NCBI RefSeq assembly: GCF_008087625.1
Contig: NZ_CP042997.1
Span: forward strand, 5,952,001-6,016,000
From: Aquisphaera giovannonii
GTDB taxonomy: Bacteria; Planctomycetota; Planctomycetia; Isosphaerales; Isosphaeraceae
DNA length: 64,000 bases
Direction: 5' to 3'
This document shows positions 52,958-55,258 of this stretch, in pieces. Below the pieces are notes generated by a model. It was not told the origin of the DNA, ran no database searches, and saw nothing but the letters and a program-made list of their open reading frames with translations. The first letter of the stretch is position 1. Each line of letters begins with the position of its first letter. The position numbers were made by a program, and so were the translations under genes.

Positions 52958-54622
52958 TCAGGCCCGACGGCGTCCGGCCGGGGTCCGCGCCAGGCGGGCC
53001 GCGCCGACGAGGCTCGCGGCGGAGAAGGCCATGGCCAGGCCCGCCGGCTCGGGGACGGCGGCCGCGTGGATGACGCCCACGCCCGACAGGTCGAAGCCGC
53101 CGGAGGCGAAGGGGGTGGAGAACGGGTCATTGATCAGGTGGCCCTGGGAGTCCCGCGTGCCGTAGCGCGGGTCGATCGAGCCGACGACGTCCGTGATCCG
53201 GACCTGGGTCACGCGGTTGACGTCCAGGAACGGGGAGACGCCGGCCAGCTCGGAGAGGTCGAAGCCGGTGCCGTAGCCGGCGACGTACTTGCCCGCCAGG
53301 TCGTGCAGGTTGCTGGCGTCCAGCGAGCCGAAGGCCCCGACCTGGGTGTCGGCCTGGGTCTCGGAGATCGACGGGAACCGGAAGAAGTGGACGCCGTCGG
53401 ACGAGACGTCCACGAAGGCCAGCTCCAGGTACGCCAGGCCGTTGCCACCGGAGAGGAACCCGTTCTCGAAGACCGCGAAGTCCGCCCCCGTACCGTTGGT
53501 GATCGGGGCGTCGAAGCCCAGCGTGATCGACCCGCCATCGCCCAGCGAGACGATGCCCCCGGCGGAGCCCAGCGCGTCGGTCGGCTGGCCGAACGACGCG
53601 AGCGGGCTGTTGGGGTTGCTGATGTCCTGCGGGCCGCGGGTGATCGAGACCACCGACGAGGCCCACTCCTGGAAAAGCGGGCTGCTCCGGGCGATGCCGA
53701 GCGAGCCCGCCTGCCCGACCTGCGGGGCGAAGCTCCCGGCGCGGGCCTCGAGGGCCGACGTCGCCAGCAGGACGCACGGCAGCAGGGCCGCGACCCGCCG
53801 CCGGGCCTTCAGCCCGAGGAGGCCGGCCAGGCCCAGGCCCATGAGGGCCAGGCCCGACGGCTCCGGGACCGCGGCCGCCGCCGTCGTGAACGTGAAGTCG
53901 TCGGCCGCGAAGTAGGCCGGCGTATTCACCCCGAAGGTCGGGTCGTCCTGGCTCGACTGGATGCCGAATTGCAGGACGGAGGAGCCGGCCAGCGAGGAGA
54001 GGTCGACGGTCTCCCAGGTGTTGACGATGTACCAGTCGTCCTTGTTGTCGCTCAGGAAGTTGGCGAGGTAGAAGTCGACGGTGCCGACGAGCTTGCCGGA
54101 CGCGTCGTAGCCGCGGACGTCCAGGAGCTGGTAATCGCCGTGCTCGAAGGCATGGGCGAAGCCGAAGGCGTCGCCGTCGCGCATGGTGTAGTACGCGTAG
54201 GCCGTGTTGGTGATCGCGATCGAGTCCGGCGTCGCCCCGGGGGCCAGGGTGATGGTCGTCCCGGCCGGGTGGAAGGGGTCGGTGTCCCCGCCGAACGTGA
54301 AGCCGACCGCGTAGGCCTTCGAGCCGTCCGCGCCCCCGCCGGTGATGGAGCTGTACTGGTTGGTGAAGGACGGGTCCGTCTTGTCGGTCATCGCGGACAG
54401 CGACCACCCGGACCAGATGCCGCCGAACGACGGGGAGAAGCTGTTGTTGTAGGCGTTGCCGTCGATCGTGAAATGGCCGCCGGGGCCGGCGTCGTTCACG
54501 TACGTGCCGGCCGCCAGGCCGAGGTCGTCGAACGTGGACGTCACCGTGCCGGCGCGTGAGGCGGATGCGGAGGCGAGGCCGAGCGTGAGGATCGCTGCGA
54601 GCGCAGCGCGAGCGTGGCGCAT
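52958..54622 (-). CDS. Double PEP-CTERM surface protein with DUF4465-like first module
   Basis: 554 aa. Signal peptide ARAALAAILTLGLASASASR. Residues ~30-250 match the DUF4465 pattern: TFDDLGLAAGTYVNDAG, WSGWSLSAMTDKTDPSFTNQ, GADGSKAYAVGFTFGGDTDP, DGDAFGFAHAFEHGDYQLLD, TPAYFAADDFTF. A full PEP-CTERM signal follows (AAAVPEPSGLALMGLGLAGL then KARRR). Without a stop comes a second signal-like helix (VAALLPCVLLATSALEARAG), a second surface domain (~300-520) and a second signal (AAAVPEPAGLAMAFSAASLV, then ARTPAGRRRA). It looks like two genes fused in frame. A cobalamin riboswitch lies upstream. DUF4465 proteins occur in B12 loci elsewhere, so corrinoid binding is inferred. Confidence 0.8.
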   Translation of the reverse strand: MRHARAALAAILTLGLASASASRAGTVTSTFDDLGLAAGTYVNDAGPGGHFTIDGNAYNNSFSPSFGGIWSGWSLSAMTDKTDPSFTNQYSSITGGGADGSKAYAVGFTFGGDTDPFHPAGTTITLAPGATPDSIAITNTAYAYYTMRDGDAFGFAHAFEHGDYQLLDVRGYDASGKLVGTVDFYLANFLSDNKDDWYIVNTWETVDLSSLAGSSVLQFGIQSSQDDPTFGVNTPAYFAADDFTFTTAAAAVPEPSGLALMGLGLAGLLGLKARRRVAALLPCVLLATSALEARAGSFAPQVGQAGSLGIARSSPLFQEWASSVVSITRGPQDISNPNSPLASFGQPTDALGSAGGIVSLGDGGSITLGFDAPITNGTGADFAVFENGFLSGGNGLAYLELAFVDVSSDGVHFFRFPSISETQADTQVGAFGSLDASNLHDLAGKYVAGYGTGFDLSELAGVSPFLDVNRVTQVRITDVVGSIDPRYGTRDSQGHLINDPFSTPFASGGFDLSGVGVIHAAAVPEPAGLAMAFSAASLVGAARLARTPAGRRRA

Positions 54623-55049
54623 GGGGATGCGTTCTCCTTCCTTCAGGATGAATGGGATCTCTTGGATGGCGGGGCGAGCGTTCGTTCGTCGCGGCGACCA
54701 CGGCGCGCAGCACCGCACGGGCTCGCGAGCGGGGCGGCGTCTCGCGACGCACGGCTCGAGGGGCTCACGCGGGGGCGACCGGTCCGTCGCGCGGGGCGAT
54801 CAGCCCCGGGCAAGGGGCCCCGGGCGGCGACGAGGTCGGTGTGACGGCCGCGGCGGGCCGGTGCGATCGGCGGGCGGGCCGCCCGGATCGGCGAGACTGG
54901 GGCCCTGGCGGGCGGGCGTGGGGCGGAGCACGGGGGGTGCGGTCCTTTCCGTGGCCATGCGCTCGCGGCCTTCGGGAAGGGCACCTGCGCGGACGTGGCG
55001 CGCCGGAACATGCCCCCCGATGCTTTAGGCCGAAGCATCGCATGGGTGT

Positions 55050-55218
55050 CCCGTCGGGCCGTATTCTGGCTCGCGAGTCAATCGGTCCCGGACGCCTTCC
55101 CGCGGGCGCTCGGCTCGCAGTGGCATGCTGTCCGGGGACCATCCTCGCTCACAGCGGCGGTCCCGCGCCGGATTCTCACCGGCTTCCTGCCCGGCCTTGC
55201 GGCCGGGCGCCCGACGGG
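55050..55218 (-). ncRNA. Cobalamin (vitamin B12) riboswitch
   Basis: A 169-base minus-strand element closed by a perfect 10-bp helix, CCCGTCGGGC with GCCCGACGGG. Inside, in order: a GNRA-capped hairpin (GCCCGGCC-GCAA-GGCCGGGC), the conserved core GGTGAGAATCCGG (55168-55180) then CCGCCGCTGTGA, the B12 box GCCACTG (55118-55124), GGGAAGGCG and GAGCCAGAATACGG. Together these are diagnostic of the cobalamin aptamer. It would turn its downstream gene off when cobalamin is bound. No canonical terminator with a T-tract follows, so the control mode is unclear. Confidence 0.92.
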
Positions 55219-55228
55219 CATGGCAGGG

Positions 55229-55258
55229 ATACTACAACGCCCCGCGTGGCCGAGTCAA
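55229..55258 (-). promoter_or_regulatory. Sigma-70-like promoter of the cobalamin-riboswitch transcript
   Basis: On the minus strand: -35 TTGACT (55253-55258), an 18-base spacer, then -10 TAGTAT (55229-55234). The predicted start, about 7 bases further at ~55222, lies just before the first riboswitch helix at 55218. The fit in both sequence and position is good. Confidence 0.7.

Follow-up and report, generated by a model that had tools for sequence, protein, structure and literature searches.

How does a bacterium in whose genome no TonB plug domain is found obtain vitamin B12, a molecule too large for ordinary porins? This question is raised by a 64-kb stretch of DNA (the window, meaning the whole of the sequence analysed) from the genome of Aquisphaera giovannonii (G000; 10.5 Mb in 3 contigs), in which a cobalamin riboswitch lies upstream of a gene for a 554-residue protein with two PEP-CTERM signals. 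This is very probably a B12-repressed gene for surface B12 capture, whose product combines BtuJ and BtuH modules, is sorted by exosortase and serves an alternative mode of B12 acquisition. The capture of B12 is the well supported part of this reading. Judging from the riboswitch class, expression would be permitted when intracellular cobalamin is scarce, and the DUF4465 (BtuJ-like) and BtuH-like modules, which are homologous to families with proven B12 binders, would then capture the vitamin at the cell surface.

The 554-residue protein and its riboswitch

The first module of the protein, taken by the initial annotation to be DUF4465, is indeed matched by PF14717 (175.6 bits versus a cut-off of 25), and its nearest match in the PDB is 9hmu (D5EK51 with B12; phmmer E of 6e-19), followed by 9fct (BtuJ1). 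A match of the same module to Pectate_lyase22 was rejected at 17.2 bits, under the cut-off of 30. According to Clarke et al. 2026 (PMC13398666), eight DUF4465 proteins, divergent among themselves, bind B12, and the same work describes the D5EK51-B12 structure as one of the DUF4465 family and a planctomycetal DUF4465 binder, 'Pan' of Mucisphaera calidilacus. The conserved B12 contacts Y146 and Y245 of BtuJ1, located in the DE and HI loops (NTPAY motif; PMC13398666), align in sequence with Tyr142 (NTAY) and Tyr237 (NTPAYF) of the window protein, which suggests that its DUF4465 module may also bind B12.

For the second module no Pfam family scored above its cut-off. A profile of 14 sequences (A1) was used for this region because most of the signal of a broader BtuH-like profile (A2) came from the secretion-system sorting domain that its Bacteroidota members carry, and A2 was set aside. 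The sole match of A1 was 8blw_B, in the C-terminal H domain of BtuG1 of Bacteroides thetaiotaomicron (B. theta), with an E of 4e-5. When folds were ranked against the AlphaFold model of the module (mean predicted local distance difference test score, pLDDT, of 69), 7biz_A (BtuH2 with B12) came first, with a Z of 13.8 over 167 residues and a root-mean-square deviation of 4.1, followed by 8blw_B (Z of 12.4), with generic CBM32-like jelly rolls at 10.7 or below. The module thus appears BtuH-like by profile and predicted fold. BtuH2, in which Tyr510, Trp511, Trp577, His476, Asn399 and Gln333 contact the vitamin, binds B12 with a KD of about 6 pM by surface plasmon resonance (PMC8941943), and binding by the BtuH-like module of the window protein may be expected as well. 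Given that the DUF4465 match retains both tyrosines and that the second module is BtuH-like in profile and fold, the gene probably encodes an exosortase-sorted fusion of the BtuJ-BtuH type. DUF4465-BtuH-like fusions, in both domain orders, are also present in Bacteroidota.

The double PEP-CTERM assignment was likewise borne out, with PF07589 matching two stretches of the protein (25.6 bits versus a cut-off of 20.7). The N-terminus, MRHARAALAAILTLGLASASASRAG, carries no lipobox cysteine, and the genome contains four exosortase matches. Export by Sec and subsequent sorting to the cell surface by exosortase are predicted from these signals and genes. In the strict sense, BtuJ lipoproteins of Bacteroides have a lipoprotein signal and a btuB neighbour; because the lipobox cysteine and, genome-wide, a TonB plug are missing and PEP-CTERM is present, the window protein is classed as a DUF4465 member and not as a BtuJ lipoprotein.

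At the junction between the modules (Table 1), the PEP-CTERM helix is followed by a run of arginines and by a second hydrophobic helix with a signal-peptidase-like end (VPEPSGLALMGLGLAGLLGLKARRRVAALLPCVLLATSALEARA|G), and the three elements together probably form a membrane hairpin. The junction comprises 44 codons in A. giovannonii and in Aquisphaera insulae JC669 (G001), without indels and with 23 identical residues, and lies within one open frame in both. An assembly error as the origin of the fusion was rejected, since the second species, assembled separately, has the same open junction. After the arginine run A. giovannonii has GTC where A. insulae has ATG, so that the second module of the former has no start of its own there. 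In genera other than Aquisphaera, DUF4465 and BtuH-like proteins come from two distinct genes that have their own respective signals. Were exosortase and signal peptidase to cut at the junction, one polyprotein would yield two surface proteins.

The initial annotation had placed a complete cobalamin aptamer at 55050-55218, on the strand of the gene and with a promoter just upstream. The Rfam covariance model recovers it in full (RF00174; 71.3 bits versus a gathering score of 31.5, E of 1.4e-15, model positions 1-189), as the sole Rfam match across the window, and the promoter reappears in a consensus scan that found two sigma-70-like sites in the riboswitch region versus 0.1 expected from shuffled controls. 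The distance from the 3' end of the aptamer to the ATG, previously given as 428, is 417 nucleotides, and a scan of the riboswitch region found no intrinsic terminator, as had been remarked. Neither point is judged anomalous, because similar gaps are seen in sister loci: where a DUF4465 or BtuH-like gene comes first, the domain starts about 120-620 nucleotides past the aptamer. Immediately 3' of the aptamer a hairpin motif, GATGCTT-CGGCCNN-AAGCATC, recurs at 40 of 92 riboswitches of the Isosphaeraceae, that of the window included, and possibly constitutes an element of the expression platform. A kissing loop between this hairpin loop and one aptamer loop is unsupported, because shuffled loops gave complementarity just as good (mean run of 4.14) as that of the real pair (4.20). 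A conserved leader peptide starting at the AUG in the hairpin stem was also rejected, given that the resulting frames differ in length and frame between loci.

Table 1. Features of the riboswitch-controlled locus, in window coordinates
Feature	Position	Strand	Basis
554-residue protein, DUF4465 (BtuJ-like) + BtuH-like, double PEP-CTERM, single open frame	52958..54622	(-)	Open reading frame and Pfam; same fusion in A. insulae
C-terminal PEP-CTERM signal, residues 523-554	52961..53056	(-)	Second PF07589 stretch; sequence
BtuH-like B12-binding-type domain (predicted), residues 296-521	53060..53737	(-)	Profile match and predicted structure
Second hydrophobic segment ending ARA|G, signal-peptide-like, residues 277-295	53738..53794	(-)	No indels versus A. 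insulae
Internal PEP-CTERM signal, residues 252-276 (251-275 in Pfam; VPEP, hydrophobic helix, RRR)	53795..53869	(-)	PF07589 and TIGR02595
DUF4465 domain, residues 67-243	53894..54424	(-)	PF14717; alignments to 9hmu and 9fct
Long 5' leader, AAGGAG Shine-Dalgarno ahead of ATG	54623..55017	(-)	Sequence; comparable leaders in sister loci
Hairpin CGATGCTT-CGGCCTA-AAGCATCG	55018..55040	(-)	Immediately 3' of aptamer; repeated in sister loci
Cobalamin riboswitch aptamer (RF00174), complete	55040..55229	(-)	Rfam covariance model
Promoter, sigma-70-like, TTGACT-18-TAGTAT	55229..55258	(-)	Consensus scan; directly upstream of aptamer

Riboswitch targets and B12 need in the Isosphaeraceae

Among 45 Isosphaeraceae genomes, several of them incomplete, cobalamin riboswitches are found in 41 and DUF4465 in 29. 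The succession of riboswitch and DUF4465 that had been suggested as worth seeking in relatives is the rule in this family: a same-strand cobalamin riboswitch lies at most 4 kb upstream of 36 of the 39 DUF4465 hits, and the other three comprise two near contig ends and one partial match. Of the 92 riboswitches, each assigned a first target from the DNA downstream, 43 have a DUF1559 prepilin-like gene in that place, 16 have DUF4465, 9 a BtuH-like gene and 24 another gene; sequence reading of other targets points to MetE-like, ribonucleotide-reductase-like, CobN-like and BtuF-like proteins, and a profile confirmed FecCD at some of them. An operon in which the riboswitch is followed by DUF1559 and DUF4465, and at times by a BtuH-like gene, is recurrent. 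A. giovannonii has just two riboswitches, one ahead of the DUF4465-BtuH-like gene and one (G000:C1:4388930) ahead of a DUF1559 gene.

The absence of classic B12 genes from the window, noticed at the outset, extends in part to larger scales. The TonB plug domain was found in none of the 45 genomes, with positive controls in E. coli, Caulobacter and Bacteroides, and neither the FecCD permease, which gives strong matches in eight relatives, nor CbiC was found in the whole A. giovannonii genome. In the same genome the B12-binding enzyme domain is matched seven times, once in a 1267-residue frame consistent with MetH. Because such enzyme domains are present and cbiC, a TonB receptor and FecCD were not found, A. 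giovannonii probably acquires B12 by a route other than a TonB receptor and FecCD. When cbiC is taken as the marker for de novo synthesis, DUF4465 occurs in 27 of 35 genomes lacking CbiC versus 2 of 10 possessing it (Fisher p of 0.0017), and riboswitch-linked DUF1559 in 33 of 35 versus 3 of 10 (p of 8e-5, counting one gene truncated at a contig end). Within the genus of the window, the genome G002 has CbiC and lacks DUF4465.

Two individual DUF4465 loci may be mentioned. In G038 a 1283-residue DUF4465 protein (L060, 6239-10090) carries a repeat-type sequence (GGVVFNDLDGDGSQDSGE...) in place of PEP-CTERM, apparently a different surface display. In G037 a match to the Acido-Lenti-1 RNA (L006, 2214-2258; 39.8 bits versus a cut-off of 37) lies just 3' of the DUF4465 gene.

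The prepilin-like partner and a possible route of import

The second riboswitch of A. giovannonii (96.5 bits) stands immediately 5' of its target, a DUF1559 prepilin-like gene (riboswitch and gene at G000:C1:4388930-4390234; L001; L068 8931-10235; PF07596 match at G000:C1:4389371). The co-regulated DUF1559 partner has a prepilin N-terminus (FTLIELLVVIAII / FTLIELLVVIAIIAVLIALLLPAVQ), and its predicted structure has a helix at 3-54, the first part of which is confident; taken as a whole, the predicted structure of this linked type says little (mean pLDDT of 44) and is the basis of no claim. To our knowledge DUF1559 has no established function. If the family makes up a few per cent of genes, its position as first target of nearly half of the riboswitches is far above chance. 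In a quick tree of 86 sequences, independent of the use of the family as seed of a hidden Markov model, one group of 43 rows holds all 30 unlinked DUF1559 paralogs together with 13 linked ones. The linked DUF1559 proteins of DUF4465 operons, along with that of A. giovannonii and Pirellulales relatives, fall outside this group, and the 13 linked members within it include a second linked lineage from genomes without cbiC and without DUF4465. One published note refers in passing to PF07596 as solute-binding (PMC2754498). The literature search found no paper joining DUF1559, cobalamin and riboswitch, none on pseudopilins and B12 uptake, and none on a prepilin-like protein carrying B12 across the outer membrane; one paper with both PEP-CTERM and cobalamin riboswitch was, in the part of its text that was available, judged unrelated.

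Loci with BtuH-like genes were also collected from other phyla in one scan of named genomes, with contigs matched by position and not by name. They occur in Bacteroidota, Verrucomicrobiota, Planctomycetota and Armatimonadota, and a same-strand cobalamin riboswitch precedes 43 of the 50 tested. Of the Bacteroidota-labelled loci, 36 of 55 were found to have a TonB receptor and 40 to encode a BtuG-like DUF5074 propeller, and neither was found within any of the 25 loci examined from the Planctomycetes-Verrucomicrobia-Chlamydiae (PVC) group and Armatimonadota. Instead, 18 of 21 PVC and Armatimonadota loci outside the Isosphaeraceae have a same-strand prepilin-like gene near the BtuH-like or DUF4465 gene. 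Verrucomicrobiota, Armatimonadota and Planctomycetota loci carry a distinct prepilin-like family (RWHG...CPxF...GGYGYN...SVHFRH...CDGH...YYGGD...GWFGP; L128-L201), whose genes adjoin BtuH-like or DUF4465 genes behind cobalamin riboswitches, where Bacteroidota carry the TonB receptor. The anchors vary as well: planctomycetes and Chthonomonas have PEP-CTERM, Bacteroidota have type 9 sorting domains and B. theta has lipid anchors (PMC12751083). One Bacteroidetes-labelled contig (L156) has the prepilin-like/BtuH-like arrangement typical of Verrucomicrobiota; it is the sole such case among the Bacteroidota-labelled loci, and the label may be wrong.

Co-regulation of the prepilin-like gene by the riboswitch leaves room for a transport step in which captured B12 is perhaps handed to the DUF1559 protein and taken across the outer membrane by the filament that this protein would form. 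In its general form, put forward tentatively, this would be a pilus-based B12 import replacing BtuB in diderms without TonB-dependent B12 receptors, in which a riboswitch-controlled prepilin-like filament (DUF1559 or RWHG type) is fed by DUF4465 and BtuH-like surface proteins, the capture pair of Aquisphaera being made as a polyprotein that exosortase and signal peptidase cleave. The lack of such receptors was tested in the Isosphaeraceae and is suggested by the loci for Verrucomicrobiota, other Planctomycetota and Armatimonadota. A candidate for the inner-membrane step is DUF6580 (PF20221), a small membrane-protein family present in 30 of the 45 Isosphaeraceae and once in A. giovannonii. Seen at G000:C1:3333080-3333595, G020:C546:7008-7520 (in L121) and L140 5336-5887, the family keeps company with BtuF-like and diphthamide-synthase-like genes downstream of cobalamin riboswitches and also adjoins a BtuH-like fusion. 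In G037 (L080, 1190-3555) the gene next after a riboswitch-controlled DUF1559 gene appears to encode a membrane protein of the PepSY type, which might indicate a reductive step.

Several points weigh against a surface B12-capture function of the window gene. The genome counts share ancestry and are not phylogenetically independent, and eight genomes without CbiC also lack DUF4465. Similarity to BtuH is distant, with 21% identity across the part that aligns, and the model of the second module is only moderately confident. The long gap and the missing terminator make the expression platform hard to place, and they would also fit a riboswitch that serves another transcript and stands upstream of the 554-residue gene incidentally; this is highly improbable in view of the linkage across the family, at similar gaps. 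B12 might instead be bound for storage, sequestration or vesicle-borne scavenging by a protein that resides in the matrix or on vesicles, where it concentrates the vitamin or denies it to competitors and takes no direct part in import. PEP-CTERM proteins are typically matrix-associated, which together with the lack of an importer adjoining the window gene speaks for such a role. In B. theta, extracellular vesicles bear BtuJ proteins, which provide B12 from that location (PMC12751083). Nonetheless, DUF4465 tracks the absence of cbiC, as uptake predicts, and the same domains accompany TonB and BtuG-like genes in Bacteroidota, and a role apart from import is considered unlikely. The proposal of an exosortase-sorted surface protein replacing or assisting an outer-membrane receptor is supported by the B12 binders of the DUF4465 family (PMC13398666), the BtuH-like module, the riboswitch linkage and the family-wide lack of TonB plugs.

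With the capture function retained, the fate of the chain and the part played by DUF1559 have to be weighed. The protein could be one continuous two-domain chain, in which the internal PEP-CTERM and signal-like helices form a membrane anchor between the B12-binding domains. This would agree with the single open frame in both Aquisphaera genomes and with the natural fusion of BtuG1 to a BtuH domain (PMC10404256), and Bacteroidota fusions exist without such an internal membrane segment. The junction nevertheless keeps both sorting signals, each in the form found in relatives with separate genes, and a single chain is regarded as plausible, if somewhat doubtful. The riboswitch-linked DUF1559 genes, for their part, could be unrelated to import and encode abundant surface pseudopilins placed under B12 control for, say, changes in attachment or metabolism. 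The family is versatile, given its 113 matches in A. giovannonii, and the structural model of the linked type offers nothing against such a role. That DUF1559 is the commonest first target, that the DUF1559 types accompanying DUF4465 branch separately from the unlinked paralogs, that its presence tracks the absence of cbiC and that a prepilin-like gene replaces TonB at the BtuH-like loci of other phyla all argue for a link with import, which leaves the unrelated role rather questionable.

Comparison with known systems

The machines of type IV pili and competence pseudopili share with the proposed prepilin route the prepilin N-terminus of the DUF1559 partner and the presence of secretins in the genome (three matches), but the literature search found no vitamin-uptake role for them. 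With the BtuBG-BtuFCD system of Bacteroides the similarity lies in surface B12-capturing proteins under cobalamin riboswitches, whereas A. giovannonii, in which neither a BtuB-type TonB receptor nor FecCD was found, has the co-regulated DUF1559 prepilin-like protein instead. BtuH (BtuH2, PDB 7BIZ; C-terminal domain of BtuG1, PDB 8BLW) is the best structural and a significant profile match of the second module and shares with it riboswitch-controlled loci and fusion to other B12 binders; the module of the window differs in being remote in sequence, in lacking PKD domains and in having PEP-CTERM in place of a lipoprotein anchor. BtuJ1/BtuJ2, D5EK51 and 'Pan' have in common with the window protein the domain family, the tyrosines of the DE and HI loops, secretion and the cobalamin riboswitch (as for BtuJ in B. 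theta). BtuJ1 and BtuJ2 are, however, lipoproteins in loci with btuB, whereas the window protein carries signals for PEP-CTERM/exosortase sorting, is fused to a BtuH-like module and belongs to a TonB-less family.

The initial annotation, which recognised the DUF4465 module and missed both the BtuH-like module and the co-regulated DUF1559 partner, had spoken of a possible new B12-capture system. This holds for the combination and not for the DUF4465 module, whose family includes published B12 binders (PMC13398666): the DUF4465 part is of an already known kind, and novelty at the level of a variant attaches to the exosortase-sorted BtuJ-BtuH type fusion found in a lineage without TonB receptors. 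A prepilin route would, should it prove real, be new as a category, and DUF1559 gains a testable role as a concrete candidate for TonB-independent vitamin uptake. In this TonB-less family, surface B12 binders of both known types are retained under B12 riboswitches.

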